Made by a program: the position numbers and the translations under genes | Assembly: GCA_016186945.1 (NCBI GenBank) | Contig: JACPKR010000010.1 | Coordinates: 1 to 23,339 of the forward strand | Direction of reading: 5' to 3' | DNA: 23,339 bases | Source of the DNA: Deltaproteobacteria bacterium | Lineage (GTDB): Bacteria; Bdellovibrionota_B; Oligoflexia; Oligoflexales; Bog-1112 | Part shown: positions 1,860 to 13,586 of the stretch, one piece after another | Layout: each line of letters starts with the position of its first letter | How positions within the stretch are numbered: the first letter of the stretch is position 1 | Notes under the pieces: model-generated | Told to the model about the DNA's origin: nothing | The model's input: the letters and a program-made list of their open reading frames with translations, nothing else | The model's database searches: none

Positions 1860-1943
1860 TGGATAGGCGTCTCTGTAAGAATTTATTCCAATTAGACCGA
1901 TATACATAATGGCGTGAAACACGGGGGACATTTGGAGCCAAGT

Positions 1944-3107
1944 ATGCAAGTCACAGAACTAAAACTCGCGATCGGAAAAAAGATCAAATCTCTGCGAGAG
2001 GCCCTGCATCTGTCGCAAGAGGACCTCGCTAAAAAGATGGACTGGAACTCCCACGTTACTGTTGGAAGCGTGGAAAGAGCCGAACGCGATCTCAAGGCTT
2101 GGGAACTTGCGAAGCTGAGTTCTATCTTTCGCGTACCTTTGCACGAATTGCTAGCAACGGAAATTGCTGTTGAGCAAAAACCCGCATTTGTTCTGTGGCG
2201 CTCGCGCCCATCTGAACAAGTAGTTAAAGAGCAGGAAGCACGATTTTTTGAGGTTTGCCGACGCTTTGACTTCCTAGAGAAGGCACTTGGGCTGCACGAA
2301 AAAAGACCTGCGACGAAAAATTTACCTTCCTTTCCTCTCGATCTTTCCAAAACGACATACTCGCAAGTTTATGATCTCGCCAATGATTGCAGAGAAGTCA
2401 TGGGTCTTAGAAATTTTCCTGCCAAACAATTGGTTTCCAAACTTGAAGATGAATATGAAATCCGGGTCGTCTATTTAGACCTTGATGACAACCAGGGCTC
2501 CGCTGCATGCACTATCTCTGAATTTGGAAAGTGCATGATGCTTAACAGGAACGAGGTTCCATGGCGTAGAAATTTCAGTATCGCTCACGAGCTTTTCCAC
2601 ATCATCACTTGGAATCAATTATTGTTTGAACAAATTTCGTCAAACAAAGAACTGTTGGAGAAGAACGAAAAGCTTGCCGAAACTTTCGCTGCTGGTCTGC
2701 TCATGCCTGCCGAACAGATTCAACAGGCCATTGAGGAGTGTGCAAGTGACGACAAAATTGGCGCTTCTGATATACTAGCCATTGCCCGCGAATTTGAGGT
2801 GTTAGCGGAAGCGTTACTGTGGAGACTTGTGAATTTGAAGTTCATCGACAGCAGCGCAGTTGAAAAAATTCGCATTGATAGAAAATTTCGCGAATTGGAA
2901 ACTGAATTGAATAGCGAACGCAAAACCAAGGATCATTTCTGTAGCTGGCGCTTCGTGCGTCTTGCTTACCAGGCCCATAGCAAGGGGAGACTCTCCAAAG
3001 CTAATTTAGCAAAATATCTAGACGTGTCGTTGGTTGACCTTGAAAATAAATTAGCAGACTTTGGGTTGGCAGAAATCGATGGCCCCGAAATCAAAATTCA
3101 TTCTTGA
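1944..3107 (+). CDS. XRE-family HTH regulator with ImmA/IrrE metallopeptidase domain
   Basis: This 387-residue cytoplasmic protein has an N-terminal XRE helix-turn-helix (about residues 8-65, with LSQEDLAKKMDW at the turn). A COG2856 (ImmA/IrrE-like) zinc peptidase domain follows, with HELFH at residues 215-219 and the downstream helix ETFAAGLLMP that supplies the third metal ligand. Family members cleave a partner regulator or act as the antitoxin half of a toxin-antitoxin pair. The ATG at 1944 is chosen because GGAG lies six bases upstream; a GTG at 1914 is an in-frame alternative. The gene overlaps the following PIN-domain gene by 29 bp, so the two are probably co-expressed. The palindrome over its promoter suggests autoregulation. 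Family assignment is strong; the TA role is inference from the neighbour. Confidence 0.88.
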   Translation: MQVTELKLAIGKKIKSLREALHLSQEDLAKKMDWNSHVTVGSVERAERDLKAWELAKLSSIFRVPLHELLATEIAVEQKPAFVLWRSRPSEQVVKEQEARFFEVCRRFDFLEKALGLHEKRPATKNLPSFPLDLSKTTYSQVYDLANDCREVMGLRNFPAKQLVSKLEDEYEIRVVYLDLDDNQGSAACTISEFGKCMMLNRNEVPWRRNFSIAHELFHIITWNQLLFEQISSNKELLEKNEKLAETFAAGLLMPAEQIQQAIEECASDDKIGASDILAIAREFEVLAEALLWRLVNLKFIDSSAVEKIRIDRKFRELETELNSERKTKDHFCSWRFVRLAYQAHSKGRLSKANLAKYLDVSLVDLENKLADFGLAEIDGPEIKIHS

Positions 3108-3605
3108 TGCCAACGTAATCATCACTGCTCATTCTTTTGGTATCTGGCAACAGGTAACAAATAAATATGACGTCTACGTCACAAAAACGGTGATCGAAGA
3201 AGTCCAGTATTTTCTTTCAAAGAAAACTTCGCAAAAAGTTTCCATCGAGCTTAAAGCAGAGGTCACAAAGCAAAACATCACTGCAATCGAAGGTGACGTT
3301 TTGTTGCTGCAAAAACTCTTCGCAAAGACAAAAAACCTGTCTGACACCATCGACCCGGTGAAACCGAGGCCATTTCTCTTCTTCTAGGCGATGAGTTTAA
3401 GGAGTTCCGCTTTTGCACAGGCGACCGAACTGCCATCAAGGTGTTGTCCGCTCTTGGAATCTCACACATGGGTATCTCGATGGAGAAACTTCTGAAAGAT
3501 GCAGGGATCTCAACAAAAGGACTGCATGGTTCTTATTCCAAAAAGGCATTTCAACACAGGGTCTCGGAAGGTTTTCTTGAGAAGTCGTACTACGTTAAGG
3601 GTTAG
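3079..3605 (+). pseudogene. PIN-domain ribonuclease toxin, frameshifted
   Basis: The first frame (from ATG 3079) opens with KFILDANVIITAH, the classic PIN-domain first acidic motif, and ends early at 3387. A one-base shift near 3357-3358 (CCGGTG where CCGGGTG would keep the frame) restores a second frame to a TAG at 3605. That frame carries GETEAISLLLGDE (second acidic motif) and FCTGDRTAIKVL (third acidic motif). Together they make about 175 residues, a normal PIN length. PIN toxins cleave RNA. The overlap with the upstream XRE-ImmA gene suggests a toxin-antitoxin pair. As written the protein would lose two of its metal-binding acidic residues and be inactive, unless the missing G is a sequencing error or a ribosomal frameshift occurs. 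Confidence 0.8.
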
Positions 3606-4648: not shown

Positions 4649-4678
4649 TTTACTTTCTCGTGGTTACATGTTTATAAT
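4649..4678 (+). promoter_or_regulatory. Promoter for the 4744-7431 gene cassette
   Basis: A perfect -10 TATAAT (4673-4678) is preceded by TTTACT (4649-4654) at 18 bp. It lies in an AT-rich stretch 65 bp before the TTG start of the next gene and after the acetyltransferase remnant. This suggests an independent transcription unit. Confidence 0.5.
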
Positions 4679-4743: not shown

Positions 4744-5193
4744 TTGATTGATGACTGGATGGGGGATCTTCAACGGCTCGCTGAACAAAGTCCGGACTCC
4801 GTCCTGGTTAATCACCCTATGACGGAGCGATATTGGAGAGCAGAGACAATGCTCAGTAGCGTTATTAAAAATGGCACTCCTATCGGTTGGATGGAACGAT
4901 CAAAAAGTGAGCCAGATTACAGCAATGAAGTCGACAAGACTTTTCATCTCGTCGTGTATTTGGAAAATGAGGACGAAGGATTTTTCGACGAGGAACCGAG
5001 TTATTACAGTGTCTTCAGGATGGGATATGATGATTATGAAGGTGAACTAGTCGCTGTTTTTGCAGACCTATTTTGTTTTTATGACGGAAAAAATCCAAAG
5101 AAAGGTGATCCTAATAATCCCAAAATCTGGTCAAAGGCAGAGGCAATTGAGTTCATGCAACATCGATTCCCCGAATACGAGGTGATAGAATGA
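4744..5193 (+). CDS. Unknown acidic protein, first gene of SIR2-cyclase cassette
   Basis: I do not recognise this 149-residue cytoplasmic protein. It is strongly acidic in the second half (FFDEEPSYY, GYDDYEGELVAVFADLF) and alternates hydrophobic strands with charged turns, suggesting a compact alpha/beta fold. No signal peptide or membrane segment is visible. The TTG at 4744 is used because GAGG (4731-4734) is nine bases upstream. Its end overlaps the ATG of the HTH gene by four bases, so the two are translationally coupled. An acidic product paired with an HTH protein fits a toxin-antitoxin pair or a sensor with its regulator. Neither can be shown from sequence. Confidence 0.7.
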   Translation: MIDDWMGDLQRLAEQSPDSVLVNHPMTERYWRAETMLSSVIKNGTPIGWMERSKSEPDYSNEVDKTFHLVVYLENEDEGFFDEEPSYYSVFRMGYDDYEGELVAVFADLFCFYDGKNPKKGDPNNPKIWSKAEAIEFMQHRFPEYEVIE

Positions 5194-5648
5194 ACCAAAA
5201 AAACTTAGTATTAGAAAAAAACTATAAAATTCATGCAGCAGGAGAACTCTGGACTGTTCCCGAAATCAGCTTTGTTCGCCGAGAGAATGGTCAACTAATG
5301 CTGACAAAAGAAGAAATAGATAGAGTGAATAGTTCAATAGCGAATGTTCTCTGCTCCGACGAAACAGAGTTAACCTGGGATCAATTTGATTTTCTCTGCA
5401 AAACTACGATGACCAAATATTCACATATAGCCAGTATGCTTAGGATTGATAAAAGCACTGTCAGTAAATGGAAAAGTGGAAAGCTAGATTACTCAGCAAG
5501 CTTCGTTTTGAAACAGTTTTTTTGGCAAAAAATATTTGCTGATCATTTGAACGAAAAAAGAGCCGATTCCATTGAAAGTCAGCTTAAAAATATGGGAAAA
5601 AAAGCTGTTGATGAAAAATGGACGGGTCGGGTTAGCAGAGCCGCATAA
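5190..5648 (+). CDS. HTH transcriptional regulator (MqsA-like C-terminal HTH)
   Basis: This 152-residue protein has a helix-turn-helix near residues 68-98 (TKYSHIASMLRIDKSTVSKWKSGKLDY). It is preceded by LTKEEIDRVNSSIANVL, the arrangement seen in MqsA/YgiT-type antitoxin C-terminal domains. The usual zinc-binding cysteines of that family are not present at the N-terminus. It is coupled by an ATGA overlap to the 149-residue protein and lies 64 bp before the SIR2-cyclase gene. It probably represses this cassette. Antitoxin function is possible but unproven. Confidence 0.75.
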   Translation: MNQKNLVLEKNYKIHAAGELWTVPEISFVRRENGQLMLTKEEIDRVNSSIANVLCSDETELTWDQFDFLCKTTMTKYSHIASMLRIDKSTVSKWKSGKLDYSASFVLKQFFWQKIFADHLNEKRADSIESQLKNMGKKAVDEKWTGRVSRAA

Positions 5649-5712: not shown

Positions 5713-7431
5713 ATGCATCATCGAATAGTCATTCTATTTGGAGCAGGGGCAAGTCTTGGCTCCCAAGAAACAGGGATGCCTAGTCCTTTGGGACCTGAAT
5801 TGGTTGCCACCCTCAAGAAGAACTATCCGGAGTCATGGGGACGATTGGGATACTGCTGGAGTAAAGAATTTGAAAAGGATTTTGAACAAAGTCAGCTCAA
5901 ATTGCTCCAACTGGAATGGAAAAGGCACAGCAAATGGAAGAGGCAAGGATTTCAAGCAACTCCTCAAAATCCATATCGCACTAAGCAGTGGGATCTTGCG
6001 GATTATTTTCACAACTTCACGATAGACGGAATGAAATCCTTCTATGTACACCTATTGGATAAGCTCAGGCGAATACTGCCCGATGTTGTGTTTATCAATC
6101 TAAATTATGACACTCTTCTGCTGCAAGCTTTGGAACACCTCAAAATACAATATGCGGTACCAGGGATAAACAGTCACATGAGAGGAGAAACACTCATCTG
6201 CATGCCTCACGGCTCATCCTCGGCGCTTGCAAGGAATGGTATTGAGATTTCGGAAGCAACTCAATGTGAAGCCACCGAATTTGAACTAGTAGTTGATCGC
6301 GGCAGTTTTCAAAGACGAAGAGGGGTCTTAGAGAATTTTCTATGCTTACCTGCTATGAGTTACATAGAGCCAACCAAGTTTGCCTTGTCTGGAGCTAACT
6401 TTCTTAATGCGAATCGATTCAACCTCGAAAGTGCTCTAAACTCAGCATCGCTAATCTTTTTGATTGGAGTCAATTGCCACCCAGGCGATTCTCACATTTG
6501 GGTTCCTATCGGTAAATCTGATGCAGATTGCGTTTTCGTAAATCCCGAACCAAGTTCTTTTTGTGAATGGATAAAAACCAATAGGAAGGGAAAAACAAGC
6601 ATCATTCTATCTGAACCCTGGGGCGCAGCTTTTGAAAGGGTAATCGACTTGATTGCTCTCGGCCATCGCAAAATGCTCATACACAGACCCCGACCGCAGG
6701 GCGACTGGTGCAACATAGGCGAAAGAATAAAATGGATCTTTAATCCTACCACTGGAAAGGGGCACAGAAGCGTAAAGGGATTCTGTCTTTTTTTTGACAT
6801 TCTTGGCTATTCGCCCTTAATGTCGAAGTCGGATTGTGTCTCCTTCCATATCGAAGCGGACAATTTTTTTGTGGAATGCATTCAGTCAATCCCAGGAGAT
6901 CAGTTCCCGGATGGAAAAATTCAAGAATTGAGAGGATGCTATCTGAGGATTTCCGATACGGGAGTCATTTGGACTTATCTTTACCCAAATTTTAGTAAAT
7001 CGGATTGTTTCAATCTAATCACAACGGTGGCGAAGCAGCTACTCGTTTTTGGGTTCAAAAGACGATTTGCTCTACGTGGTGCTATTGCTTTTGGTGACTG
7101 CGTTAATGATATTGAAGGAAATTCCTTTACTGGCACGCCATGGATCGAAGCCCACAAAGCAGAACAATCATCCCCTTGGGCTGGCATGCGAATTTGCTCT
7201 GAGGCGATTGAAGATTTACCTCAAGAAAAAACAAATTGTTCTAAAATTAAAAAGTGGAAATTTGCAGATTCTAACGAGATTCTAGCGATAGATTGGGTCA
7301 CAGGAAGCGATTTAAATAGAAGTGATATCGAAGATACATTTGATAGAATACCAATCGACGAGAAAATTAAGGAGCGCGCGAAAATAAAGAAAGAGAACAC
7401 ACTGAGTTTCTTCGATTCATTTGCATCATAA
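5713..7431 (+). CDS. SIR2-like NADase fused to class III nucleotidyl-cyclase-like domain
   Basis: This 572-residue protein has two recognisable halves. The N-terminal half is SIR2-like: ILFGAGASLG (residues 7-16) is the NAD-binding glycine motif, NLNYDTLL (129-136) matches the NYD motif, and PHGS (165-168) matches the active-site His-Gly. The C-terminal half, from about residue 355, resembles a class III nucleotidyl cyclase. CLFFDILGYSPLM places an Asp at 362, YLRISDTGVIW an Asp at 415 (the two metal positions), then ALRGAIAFGD (Arg455), and FTGTPWIEAHKAEQ followed by GMRICSEA matches the usual final strand-helix. SIR2-like domains in phage defence deplete NAD, and cyclases in Pycsar make cCMP or cUMP. 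Both in one chain is unusual. ATG 5713 has AGGA upstream. No membrane segments. Domain calls are firm to moderate; the biological role is inference. Confidence 0.82.
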   Translation: MHHRIVILFGAGASLGSQETGMPSPLGPELVATLKKNYPESWGRLGYCWSKEFEKDFEQSQLKLLQLEWKRHSKWKRQGFQATPQNPYRTKQWDLADYFHNFTIDGMKSFYVHLLDKLRRILPDVVFINLNYDTLLLQALEHLKIQYAVPGINSHMRGETLICMPHGSSSALARNGIEISEATQCEATEFELVVDRGSFQRRRGVLENFLCLPAMSYIEPTKFALSGANFLNANRFNLESALNSASLIFLIGVNCHPGDSHIWVPIGKSDADCVFVNPEPSSFCEWIKTNRKGKTSIILSEPWGAAFERVIDLIALGHRKMLIHRPRPQGDWCNIGERIKWIFNPTTGKGHRSVKGFCLFFDILGYSPLMSKSDCVSFHIEADNFFVECIQSIPGDQFPDGKIQELRGCYLRISDTGVIWTYLYPNFSKSDCFNLITTVAKQLLVFGFKRRFALRGAIAFGDCVNDIEGNSFTGTPWIEAHKAEQSSPWAGMRICSEAIEDLPQEKTNCSKIKKWKFADSNEILAIDWVTGSDLNRSDIEDTFDRIPIDEKIKERAKIKKENTLSFFDSFAS

Positions 7432-9255: not shown

Positions 9256-9624
9256 AGATATGCTTGAAAGATGCTTGAAACCAAATTCATCCCAAAACCC
9301 TTGTAGAACAACGATTGCAAAATTCTGTGCAAGAGGATCAAGACAGGTTGCAGCTTTAAAAAGGAAATACAGATTCTCACAAATTGTCGCCAACGATCGT
9401 TTACCCCGTGAATTCACGGTTCGATCATGTCGAAGTAACTTAGCATGTAACTTCGGAAGAAACTCAGACACGGGAAAAACCGTTGATTATCAAGGAAGAG
9501 AAGAACAGAGAGAACAACTTACATATACCTTAAATAGCGCGAGTCCCTACGGTCCTGGGCTTTGCCCACAACCTAAAGGTTGCAAAGACCGAGGAACTCG
9601 CGCTTGCAATTCGGGGGTCAACCG
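9256..9624 (+). other. Gap before the transfer operon, no convincing gene
   Basis: A plus-strand frame runs from 9260 to 9628, but it is rich in Cys, Arg, Asn and Ser without domain-like pattern, so I do not call it a gene. The gap begins with a tandem copy of ATGCTTGAAA (9260-9269, 9271-9280) and ends with the nested hairpin at 9537-9603. An operon leader, an oriT region or an old broken gene are all possible. Confidence 0.45.
9537..9603. repeat. Nested imperfect hairpin, candidate oriT or leader structure
   Basis: Outer arms GCGCGAGT (9537-9544) and ACTCGCGC (9596-9603) pair perfectly, followed by CGGT/ACCG. Inside, CTTTGC (9560-9565) pairs with GCAAAG (9582-9587), and AACC (9570-9573) with GGTT (9578-9581) around the loop TAAA. 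The 67-base structure ends 22 bases before the coupling-protein start. It has no T-tract, so it is not a typical terminator. Confidence 0.55.
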
Positions 9625-11629
9625 ATGATCTCTCAGACTCCAAGAAAAGATCCCGAACTTGCAAGTGCACTCCTCGTCTTCGCAGCGTTATCCTGCCTTG
9701 CAACATACCTGCTCATCCCTCGTGAGAAGTTGGCCCAATTCGGCGTTCTTTTTCCTCGTATGGATACACTGGTAACTCTGATCCTTGCAGGCATTGTTTA
9801 CGGGACGTTTTCTTGCCTCTCCTGGATTCACCACAACCTGACTTTGCGTACGCCCGGGAAAACGATCTCCGCGATGAGAAGGCAAAAGCCAAACTTCAAA
9901 CTTCATGCCGTCTACCTTCTATTTGTCCTGGCCGTCGGTTTGCCAATAACTTGCCTCCTCACGAGTTTGCTTCCCATCCAAAGCAAACTTCTCGCCCACC
10001 TCCTCGGTTGGTCAGCAGCCCAGCCGTGGTGGATACCCGCCTTTGTCTGCCTCATACCCTTCTCCTGCGGCGTTGGGGACCTCTGTTGGCTTTTCACAAG
10101 CAAACTAAGAAAGATGCGCAAGAAGTTCCCATCGCTCCCCCCTATCTCTGAGAACCCAAGTCAGGAGCTATGCGTCAACATTGGAAGCAAGGGTGAGGAT
10201 GGACGTAATCCGGAATGGGTGACTCTTGGCGAGACGGATTTACTCAAGAGTATGATCATCACCGGCGGTGTTGGTTTTGGAAAGACTCAGTTGATTTTTC
10301 GAATCCTCGACCAAGTTCTGGCAAGCTTTCGAGACAATCCGAAACGCAAGCTATCCCTCCTTTTGTCCCTGTGGATGACATCAAATTCAAGTACTACAGA
10401 GTCGCTCAGCTCATGCAACTCTTGCTTTGCGAGCAATTTAAAAATTCTCATTTACTGGCAACCATGACTCAGGTCGGCTGATAAGGGCAGAGCCCTCAAT
10501 ATCTACAATTTTTCCTACTGGGGTATTTCCAGTTAACTACCAGGGAGGATCATCGCACGACCCCTTTTGGATCGAGTCGGGAACGAATCTTATAGGGTGG
10601 CTGATATGGTTATCCGCGGGTTCTTTGGAAGACGTGACGTTTGGTAACCTCTACAAGCTCCTCCTGGCGTCTTCTTCACAAGATGGGAGCGAAGATACCC
10701 TCGGACTTATCCTTAAGCTGGCTGAGAAGAAAATTGGAGGACTGGACAAAGCGGTTCAGGAAGAACAGTTGGTCAACCTCGAAACTTGCAAGCTTTACCT
10801 TGAACGAGACTTCCGCAGGATGCCGGATAAGACGCGCATGAACGTTGTCGCCAATCTCTCAAGCTTTCTGCAATTGTTTCTGACTTCTGAAGCCCTACGC
10901 ATGTTCAGCCCGAAACGAAGCGACGCAAGTTTCGGAAATATTCGAGAACTTATCGACAGCGGCAAAATCTTGGCTCTGGACATGACGCAAAACGATCGAC
11001 CTGGCTTATGTCGTGCCGTGGGGACTTTGCTCAAGTTGTCCTACCAAAACGCTGTCATGTCTCGACTGGCAGGAGGACAAACACCTGAACGTCTGGCCTG
11101 CCTCATCATGGACGAATACCAGAACTTTGCGACCAGCAGCCATGGAGAAACACAGTTTGGTGACGACCGCTTTTTTGACCAATGCAGAGCAGCCAAAGGT
11201 TTCGGTATCCTTGCGACCCAAAGTTACGCAACCCTCACGATGGTGTTGAAGAAGGAAGCCGCCGCTCACGAATTACTCGGACAAATAGCACACAAAATCA
11301 CTTTTGCCACCGATGAACCTTCAACCTGTGCCTATTTTCGAAGGCTTGCAGGGAAGCAGTGGGTGAAACGACACTCAGAAAGCATCTCGGAGTCCAGTTC
11401 CAACGCTCGCAAAACCCTCTTTCAAGACGGACTCACCACCGAAAAGTCAAGCGTGGGTCTGTCCTATTCTACCTCAGAGGTAGAAGTTGACGCGGTCAAG
11501 GACGAGGACATTGCGAAACTTCCCCCGTTCAAAGCCTTCGCAGCACTAAAGATGGCCGATAAACCCAAGACTCACTATCTTTATACCCGCCCACTTTTCG
11601 ATCCGGCACCACACAAACCATTCAGGGAC
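9625..11629 (+). pseudogene. traD: Type IV coupling protein (VirD4/TraD-like), multiply frameshifted
   Basis: From ATG 9625 the N-terminus has about four membrane segments. A Walker A motif GGVGFGKT follows at 10264-10287. Coding quality then jumps between frames: near 10350 to a frame reading PFVPVDDIKFKYYRVAQL, near 10476 to one reading KGRALNIYNFSYWGISS with a TAA at 10534-10536, then to the long final frame beginning NYQGGSSHDPFWIES. That last frame holds the Walker B LACLIMDEYQNFAT (Asp at 11111) and ILATQSYATL, typical of the TraG/TraD C-terminal ATPase. Coupling proteins bring the relaxosome to the secretion channel. As written no full product can be made, and the usual DPKGD-like segment after Walker A cannot be found. 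The gene runs into TraU without a stop. Confidence 0.75.
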
Positions 11630-12718
11630 TTGGCGTCCCGACTTTCGATTGTTTTGCTTTGTGTCGTCGCAAGCGTTTCCGCAAAAGCAGTGGTGCCACC
11701 TAATATCTGCGAAGCCGTCAACGCAGGAGCAGCTCTGTCCTGCTTCGGGATAAGGCAAGGATCATGCACCTGTCATAGTTTTGGAATCCCTTACCCCTGT
11801 GTGCGTGTCACCTACTGGGTGCCGAAAACCTTTGTCGAGGTCAGCCCCCGAATCGGGGAATCGTACTTTTCCATGATTCCCATTGTTCAAGCTCAGCTTC
11901 TTGCTGGATTCAAAACCTGGAACTGGGGGGTGAACCAACTCGGCGCGATGGGCACAGGACTTTTGAATGTGGGGGAAGTCGATGACAACGGATCCAGCTT
12001 TTTTCATGCGCACACGGCTCCTGTCTTATTATCTCACGAGGTGCTGAAAGGGCTTCCATGCGGAAGTCCGGGTTACAGCCTGCCCTGTCTGAGCGCCATG
12101 TCGGAACATCATCCCCTTCAGTGGTCGACAGGTTACTTCGATTTCAAGCAGCCGCAACTTGCAGGAACTCAGCTCTGTGGGGGAGCCGTGGACAGCGTGG
12201 GAAGTGTCGTCCAGTCCGCGCGAAGACTGCTCGACGGACCGATCGGAGACATCCTGGCAGGCGCAGGCATACCAGACTTTGCTTCTCCTGAAGGTGCTGG
12301 GTGTTCGATTCCCCTCGCCGCTACGTTAGGTTCCATCAAGCCGAGTTCAGAAATGCCTTGCGTCGGAAGCCTTGGCTCCGTCTTTCCTCGCTACGGAACC
12401 GTCAACGGTCCAACGAATGTCTCGGGAGCCTTGGCAGCGGCTTACAAATTCCGAAGTCTGGCTGATGAGCATTTTGGGACCGTTCCCAAAGGGGGAACTG
12501 AAAAATGGCAGATGGTTCGCCCAAAAATAAGCGGATGCTTCTTCCCGGGTGAAAACCTCTTCATGGTGGAAGGAGTCTTCACACCTTCGATTCGAGACCA
12601 ATTCCTTTTCCTCGTTTGGGAAAAACGCTCCTGCTGTGTCGATTACTTACGAAATGGCTTCGGACTTGCCTTCCTGTCCGGAGTCAAAGCCACATGCGCA
12701 GCAATGGGAGGAAGATAG
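11630..12718 (+). CDS. traU: TraU-like conjugal transfer protein (periplasmic, cysteine-rich)
   Basis: A TTG at 11630 with AGGG upstream gives a clean signal peptide (LSIVLLCVVASVSAKA) and a mature protein of about 340 residues rich in cysteines. These include CTCHSFGIPYPC, ending in a RVTYWVPKTFVEV segment, and a WEKRSCCVDY segment near the C-terminus. The pattern fits the TraU / TIGR03756-like family of periplasmic conjugation proteins needed for DNA transfer, with multiple disulfides. The reading frame is continuous with the coupling-protein tail upstream (open from 10625), so either TraU is translated from this internal TTG or a TraD-TraU fusion is made. Its stop lies two bases before the ATPase start. 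Family is moderately sure; the exact subfamily is not. Confidence 0.65.
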   Translation: MASRLSIVLLCVVASVSAKAVVPPNICEAVNAGAALSCFGIRQGSCTCHSFGIPYPCVRVTYWVPKTFVEVSPRIGESYFSMIPIVQAQLLAGFKTWNWGVNQLGAMGTGLLNVGEVDDNGSSFFHAHTAPVLLSHEVLKGLPCGSPGYSLPCLSAMSEHHPLQWSTGYFDFKQPQLAGTQLCGGAVDSVGSVVQSARRLLDGPIGDILAGAGIPDFASPEGAGCSIPLAATLGSIKPSSEMPCVGSLGSVFPRYGTVNGPTNVSGALAAAYKFRSLADEHFGTVPKGGTEKWQMVRPKISGCFFPGENLFMVEGVFTPSIRDQFLFLVWEKRSCCVDYLRNGFGLAFLSGVKATCAAMGGR

Positions 12719-12719
12719 C

Positions 12720-13586
12720 TTGAGTAGAAATGCCTTCCAAAAACTTTGGGATGAAATTCTACAAAACGCAGTTGATCGACAAGCTTCCGACATCCACCTT
12801 GGGCCGGAAAGCGAAGCTCCTCATGATTTCATCCTGAACTTTCGTATCGTTGGGCTTCTCGTGAGACAGGAATCTTACAGCCACCTGCTGGGGGCACTGC
12901 TCCTCGATCATCTCAAACAAATGTCGAGCCTGGATATTGCGGAACACTCCCTTCCGCAGGATGGAAGCTTGTCGATCTCGGTGGCAGACTTTCGCGTGAG
13001 TACTCTTCCCTGTTTGGGTGGGGAAAAAGCGGTCTTAAGGGTTCTCAAACGAAACAAGCGACAGAATTTGGCTTCCTTGGGTATTCCAACCGAAGCGGAG
13101 TTAGCTGTACGAACAGCCCTTCAAAAAAACTCTGGCCTTATTGTCATCGCAGGAGCAACCGGCTCCGGCAAGACTTCAACTGTTCATGCCCTGTTGTCTG
13201 AAATAGATACGCTCTCTCTCAACGTGATGACATTGGAAGACCCTGTGGAGTATCGTGCCGCAAGGCTTTCCCAGGTTCAAATTTCGAAGCACCTGACATT
13301 CGCGACGGGACTTCGCTCCATCCTTCGCCAAGACCCCGACGTGATCTTTGTGGGCGAGTGTCGCGACGCGGAAACCGCAAACCTGGCAATTGAAGCTTCA
13401 GGCACAGGCCACCTTGTCCTGACAACCGTTCACACAGGCCATGTGGAGCACATTGCGCATCGTTTTGAGGAACTCGATTGCGATAAAGTTTCGCTGGAGC
13501 GGGTACTCCTTTTCACTGCATTTCAGCAACTCGTTCCTTCACCTCAAGGACTGAACCTGGATTTTCAATGGAAGTCATACCTATGA
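12720..13586 (+). CDS. GspE/PilT-type secretion ATPase in the transfer operon
   Basis: This 288-residue ATPase closely follows the GspE/PilB pattern: ASDIHLGPE, PQDGSLSISVADFRVSTLP, Walker A GATGSGKT (residues 145-152), Asp box TLEDPVEY, and Walker B region LRQDPDVIFVGECRDAETA with a TGHLVLTTVHT His box. It lacks the N-terminal GspE domain and the C-terminal zinc-binding Cys4 region, so it is compact like VirB11 or DotB. Canonical F systems have no VirB11; this protein may fill that role, powering pilus biogenesis or substrate switching. The TTG at 12720 follows GGAGGAAG and lies just after the TraU stop. A longer upstream frame is only the shadow of traU. It overlaps traF by four bases. Confidence 0.85.
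   Translation: MSRNAFQKLWDEILQNAVDRQASDIHLGPESEAPHDFILNFRIVGLLVRQESYSHLLGALLLDHLKQMSSLDIAEHSLPQDGSLSISVADFRVSTLPCLGGEKAVLRVLKRNKRQNLASLGIPTEAELAVRTALQKNSGLIVIAGATGSGKTSTVHALLSEIDTLSLNVMTLEDPVEYRAARLSQVQISKHLTFATGLRSILRQDPDVIFVGECRDAETANLAIEASGTGHLVLTTVHTGHVEHIAHRFEELDCDKVSLERVLLFTAFQQLVPSPQGLNLDFQWKSYL

Follow-up and report, generated by a model that had tools for sequence, protein, structure and literature searches.

The window analysed here, 23,339 bp in length, represents a whole contig in which F-type conjugation genes (TraU-like, TraD-like and TraC) surround a gene that encodes a SIR2-like half joined to a class III cyclase homology domain (CHD). This SIR2-CHD gene is read on the forward strand as 572 codons, starting with an ATG at 5713 and closing with a stop codon that ends at 7431, with no internal stops and with the sequence AAGGAC, which resembles a ribosome-binding site, just 5' of the ATG. 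No long in-phase frame was found on the complementary strand of 5713-7431. The GC3 value is alike across the two halves of the gene, at 0.41 and 0.38. The overall GC contents of the SIR2-CHD gene and the two genes upstream of it are 0.43, 0.37 and 0.43, against 0.51-0.52 in the tra genes, and this lower GC fits the expectation for cargo. The features of the locus are collected in Table 1.

Table 1. Features of the SIR2-CHD locus, with positions in the window (residue numbers are those of the 572-aa protein)
Feature	Position	Strand	Basis or remark
149-aa protein, unrecognised family	4744..5193	+	4-bp overlap with HTH gene
HTH protein, 152 aa, probable regulator or antitoxin-like	5190..5648	+	weak HTH and MqsA-family matches
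SIR2-CHD fusion gene	5713..7431	+	572 aa, single open frame, RBS-like AAGGAC
SIR2-like NADase-type domain, residues 1-320	5713..6672	+	homology to single-domain SIR2 proteins
GAGAS nucleotide-binding motif, residues 10-14	5740..5754	+	invariant, 6-row alignment
N131-Y132-D133, N131 predicted catalytic	6103..6111	+	invariant (6-row alignment); aligns with NYD of KomC and 8w9l
H166-G167-S168, H166 predicted catalytic	6208..6216	+	invariant (6-row alignment); aligns with HG of KomC
Linker, residues 321-351	6673..6765	+	low confidence; pLDDT 35-41 across most of it (full model)
Class III cyclase homology domain (CHD), phrog_23933-like, residues 352-572	6766..7428	+	AF2, Foldseek, VIA-align, profile comparison
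D362, predicted first metal Asp	6796..6798	+	invariant, n=23; aligns with Asp of FxDIxGF in class III cyclases
D415, predicted second metal Asp (SDT replacing GDx)	6955..6957	+	invariant, n=23; aligns with GD Asp of class III cyclases
R455 (RGA motif), family-invariant	7075..7077	+	CHD family alignment, n=23
I478...K482 at positions of transition-state Asn...Arg	7144..7158	+	alignment with class III cyclases
K559, last-helix Lys, family-invariant	7387..7389	+	CHD family alignment, n=23

The HTH gene is separated from the SIR2-CHD gene by a gap of 64 bp. A promoter-like site, TTTACT-18-TATAAT, is located at 4649-4678 before the gene for the 149-aa protein. Since this site precedes the first gene and no terminator-like site lies between the three genes, it is plausible that they form a three-gene operon. 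No homologues of the 149-aa gene or the HTH gene were found in the plasmid set.

Several other features are found on the contig. At 1914-3387 (forward strand) the gene for an XRE/ImmA-IrrE (M78) protein overlaps a PIN-domain ORF that comes after it, and the two probably form a toxin-antitoxin or defence regulator pair; the former protein matches the PADLOC RmrA and capP models. At 9580-12718, also on the forward strand, a gene for a TraD-like coupling protein is broken across frames, with its C-terminal part in-frame with a TraU match, and would represent either a pseudogene or assembly errors. A GspE/PilB-like secretion ATPase (12549-13586, forward strand) is located inside the F-type conjugation cluster, where it is an unusual neighbour.

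Sequence evidence gives good support for a domain of the SIR2-like NADase type at residues 1-320, as anticipated in the original prediction. A haloarchaeal (Halorubrum) plasmid protein of 297 aa shares 28.7% identity with the SIR2 half over 306 aa (tblastn E 4e-20), and relatives are also present in one Pseudomonadota genome and in the phyla of genomes G060 and G061. The GAGAS, NYD and PHGS motifs are present at residues 10-14, 131-133 and 165-168 of the 572-aa translation, exactly where they had been claimed to be. H146 of KomC, the SIR2 NADase of the Kongming system, is the residue mutated in structure 9xvc according to its title, and the HG motif of KomC aligns with H166-G167 of the window protein. 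When the full model was searched with Foldseek, KomC (8zsf_A and 9xvc_E) provided the sole non-cyclase matches at E <= 0.001. The VIA-align rows for the full model contain cyclases alone, with KomC confined to the Foldseek list, and the confidence of this model over the SIR2 half is low to medium. The SIR2 half is predicted to act as an NADase.

Pfam, NCBIfam and PADLOC recognise the SIR2 half weakly, and the window protein itself matches Pfam SIR2_2 with an E value of 0.056, under the cut-off. One of its relatives matches the PADLOC SIR2 (E 7.6e-8), Aga_SIR2 and PDC-S21 models, and another matches Pfam SIR2_2 at E 7e-4, which is also under the curated cut-off. The SIR2 relatives examined consist of this one domain and are about 300 aa long. 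A scan of Bacteroidota with the SIR2 profile returned chiefly other SIR2-like subfamilies, and a small SIR2 profile matched six viral contigs. On four of these viral contigs (L040, L041, L042 and L045) the SIR2 gene is located between endolysin/spanin-like genes and a terminase-like region, with the gene names assigned by eye. The site between the lysis genes and the terminase is a common one for prophage cargo. The single-domain SIR2 genes of the prophage-like contigs L040-L045 are, in their own right, candidates for a prophage-encoded NAD-depleting defence.

The other half of the protein had been proposed to hold a cyclase homology domain after residue 355, with profile-profile comparison and structure prediction suggested as the means of checking it, and both approaches lead to class III cyclases as matches. 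The domain boundaries of the original prediction hold as well. The AF2 model of the CHD half has a pLDDT of 88.3 and a pTM of 0.87, and each of the best 50 rows of a Foldseek search with this model is a class III cyclase (lowest E 7.8e-7). Alignment of the model with VIA-align gives Z values of 13-15 on the DALI scale, with ~156-176 aligned residues and an rmsd of ~3-4 Å. In the profile-profile comparison the CHD family matches canonical class III cyclases, represented by a profile of four cyclases taken from the same genome scans, with a probability of 95.5% and an E value of 1.3e-8, compared with a probability of 0.1% for the SIR2 profile that served as a negative control. When the window protein was left out of the CHD profile, the PDB entries that scored best against the profile were bacterial class III adenylate cyclases (CyaB, E 0.017). 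At the level of the predicted structure, the class III cyclase fold of the CHD half is confirmed. Direct scans of this half with Pfam, NCBIfam and PADLOC gave no match, and it is identified from its homologues, its fold and the profile comparison.

Relatives of the CHD are mostly free-standing proteins of ~230-330 aa, encoded on plasmids, phages, prophages and the chromosomes of many phyla. Several of them match phrog_23933, an uncharacterised family; in a direct scan the CHD of the window protein falls short of this model. The domain is also joined to TPR-like repeats in Fusobacterium (L005:3828-5612) and is found within an 802-aa protein in L189.

Whether the CHD acts as a cyclase or as a sensor depends upon its active site. 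In a family alignment of 23 members the residues D362, G365, S414, D415, R455, G456, G474 and K559 are invariant. The aspartates D362 and D415, which had been put forward as metal ligands, align with the class III catalytic pair, a match made by sequence alignment with canonical cyclases and not by atomic superposition. In class III cyclases the transition-state Asn and Arg are supplied by a GDxVNxAxR motif, and in adenylate cyclases a base-selecting Lys (in KTIGD) and Asp (in YDxWG) specify adenine. Where canonical cyclases have GDxVNxAxR, the CHD of the window protein reads GTPWIEAHK. The Asn...Arg pair is absent from the alignment in all 23 members, and neither the KTIGD Lys nor the YDxWG Asp is conserved among them. 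Plain decay of the domain is hard to reconcile with metal ligands that are so strictly conserved, and standard cyclase chemistry with an Asn/Arg pair that has been lost. On the choice between an active and a degenerate cyclase half, which the original prediction did not decide, the alignment leans towards a modified or degenerate active site, in which the metal aspartates are invariant and the Asn/Arg and adenine-selecting residues are gone family-wide. Given that the metal Asp residues are kept and the Asn/Arg pair lost, a nucleotide-binding regulatory role for the CHD, which we would rate at about an even chance, is favoured over the unlikely case of an active enzyme with altered chemistry.

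The genes that flank the CHD relatives were compared with PADLOC models at a threshold of E 1e-10, taking up to two genes on each side of the CHD gene. The 135 flanking proteins of 36 CHD loci gave 331 model matches, a count inflated by redundant models, against 88 matches for 126 proteins in control regions, drawn from many of the same genomes but not matched for mobile regions. With redundant models and such a control, the excess beside CHD loci is indicative at most. Single cases are clear: CHD relatives adjoin a DISARM DrmMI (L138), a type I methylase (L147) and PDC-S62 (L124). In L017 (1310-2029) a free-standing CHD gene is flanked by an hsdS-like and an hsdM-like gene of a type I restriction-modification locus, as read by eye. 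The genome that carries the SIR2-CHD gene also encodes a free-standing CHD paralogue of 289 aa (G000:C24:52997-53530; loci L064, L117 and L151), which adjoins a DNA methylase with a C-terminal stretch that looks Mrr-like by eye (L151). Small membrane proteins are encoded directly 5' of the free-standing CHD genes of L009, L018, L021 and L023 and are possible effector partners. A conserved membrane partner for free-standing CHDs, as in a Pycsar-like pair, was considered but is not proposed, as the upstream membrane proteins look unrelated and many CHD genes are without one.

The combination of the two halves in one polypeptide is unusual: it is rare and perhaps unique in the data searched. Viral contigs, genome contigs, plasmids and phages yielded no further SIR2-CHD fusion, and none was recovered with the window protein in ~830 genomes of five groups or with the CHD profile in ~750 genomes, which are partly the same. 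The ~40 strong CHD matches in the ~750 genomes lie in open frames that are all <=440 aa, with the exception of the SIR2-CHD frame (583). One match, in L024, extends back to residue 278 and was considered as a possible fusion, but proved to be a fragment, out of frame, that precedes a free-standing CHD gene. A description of a SIR2-cyclase fusion was not found in the literature searched, with most subscription journals outside that search. The fusion is a singleton, and the coupling of its halves is thus not demonstrably conserved.

The preferred interpretation, for which the chances appear roughly balanced, is that the SIR2-CHD protein represents a single-protein NAD-depleting anti-phage effector, gated by its CHD and carried as cargo of a conjugative element. 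The CHD would be a module that binds nucleotide and metal, probably dimerises and has an altered or degenerate active site; it would keep the SIR2 half inactive pending the binding, or loss, of a nucleotide altered by infection. Such a change at the CHD may then allow the SIR2 half to assemble and, once activated, to hydrolyse NAD+, leading to its destruction. For the SIR2-CHD protein we infer the NADase activity, the ligand, the gating and the defence phenotype. This interpretation draws upon the SIR2 catalytic set of G10AGAS, N131, D133 and H166, which is invariant in the relatives, upon the SIR2 relatives that occupy prophage cargo sites and match PADLOC defence SIR2 models, upon the KomC matches of the full model, upon a CHD fold in which the metal Asp residues are kept and the Asn/Arg pair lost, and upon the CHD relatives beside defence genes and the low GC of the gene and its upstream neighbours. 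It is weakened by the singleton status of the fusion, by the low-to-medium confidence of the SIR2 model and by the limits of the PADLOC comparison, with its redundant models and unmatched control. The proposal that one protein couples sensing or signalling to NAD depletion is divided by the active site: sensing is plausible, and synthesis of a signal is the less likely form now that the Asn/Arg pair is seen to be gone.

That less likely form would see the CHD as an active nucleotidyl cyclase that uses an unusual substrate or reaction and makes a product by which the SIR2 half is switched on, within one molecule or in its neighbours, so that a single protein would supply both signal and effector. 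A diverse family keeps both metal Asp residues, one Arg and one Lys without exception, which pure decay would not preserve, and the Anabaena uridylate cyclase (8jsz) is among the fold matches; moreover, the specificity residues of PycC proteins differ widely from each other and from those of adenylate cyclases (PMC11224242). However, with the Asn...Arg pair and the adenine Lys/Asp absent in 23/23 members, and with no separate cyclic-nucleotide receptor domain recognised within the SIR2-CHD protein, an active cyclase is unlikely. The fuller proposition, that one polypeptide makes a nucleotide signal and is the NADase it switches on, so that a single gene would amount to an entire immune system of signal and effector, and that the free-standing CHDs are a new family of defence-linked nucleotide enzymes, is a shade more doubtful still. 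Alternatively, the SIR2-CHD protein may be the toxin of a toxin-antitoxin operon that stabilises the element, with the 149-aa and HTH gene products neutralising or repressing it. The same-strand genes, with their short overlap and then a terminator-free gap, the one good promoter-like site before the first of them and the weak MqsA-family match of the HTH protein are all consistent with this. Yet the upstream genes lack a homologue in the plasmid set, so that co-occurrence with SIR2 is not demonstrable, and SIR2 relatives are seen without such neighbours, which makes this explanation distinctly improbable. Accessory genes of conjugative elements often serve other roles, and the protein could be a housekeeping or mobile-element regulatory NAD-binding protein and no defence effector; this is marginally less probable again, given that SIR2 relatives occupy cargo sites of prophages and fit defence models, and that CHD relatives are found near defence genes. 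Finally, the singleton status of the fusion and the broken frames of the TraD-like gene on the same contig could suggest an artefact of mis-assembly or a chance joining of two genes, but a single 572-codon frame in which both halves are intact and homologous in phase, with similar GC3, makes this very improbable indeed.

SIR2 effectors are activated via many partner or ligand domains, and a cyclase-fold gate would represent a new type of switch. The fusion also gives a handle on a widespread and uncharacterised cyclase-like family, some members of which are found in defence regions, and suggests that this family senses or makes a nucleotide that controls an effector. The SIR2-CHD protein is best grouped with the SIR2 effectors, as a predicted member whose regulatory domain would be new, and in it known parts are brought together in a new combination.

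The protein lies outside the Thoeris, Kongming and Pycsar systems. In scans of the neighbouring genes with Pfam, no TIR domain (ThsB) was found for Thoeris, no KomA deaminase or KomB domains for Kongming and no TIR or cyclic-nucleotide-binding domain for Pycsar. Pycsar is the nearest case of a class III cyclase-fold protein tied to a NAD-destroying effector. In Pycsar, however, the cyclase PycC and its TIR effector do not share a polypeptide (PMC11224242) and the partner is PycTIR or PycTM, whereas here a SIR2 NADase-type domain is fused to a CHD without the standard catalytic residues. KomC is a SIR2-like NADase, with NYD and HG motifs that align with those of the window protein, and provides the closest solved SIR2 fold found, but it is a single-domain protein of 264 aa that acts with KomA and KomB. 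In ThsA of Thoeris, gcADPR binds to the SLOG domain, leading to filament assembly and NAD depletion (PMC12948488). ThsA, which carries both a SIR2 NADase and a domain for a nucleotide ligand on one polypeptide, is the closest in logic to the SIR2-CHD protein, although its second domain is a SLOG domain and that of the SIR2-CHD protein has a predicted class III cyclase fold.
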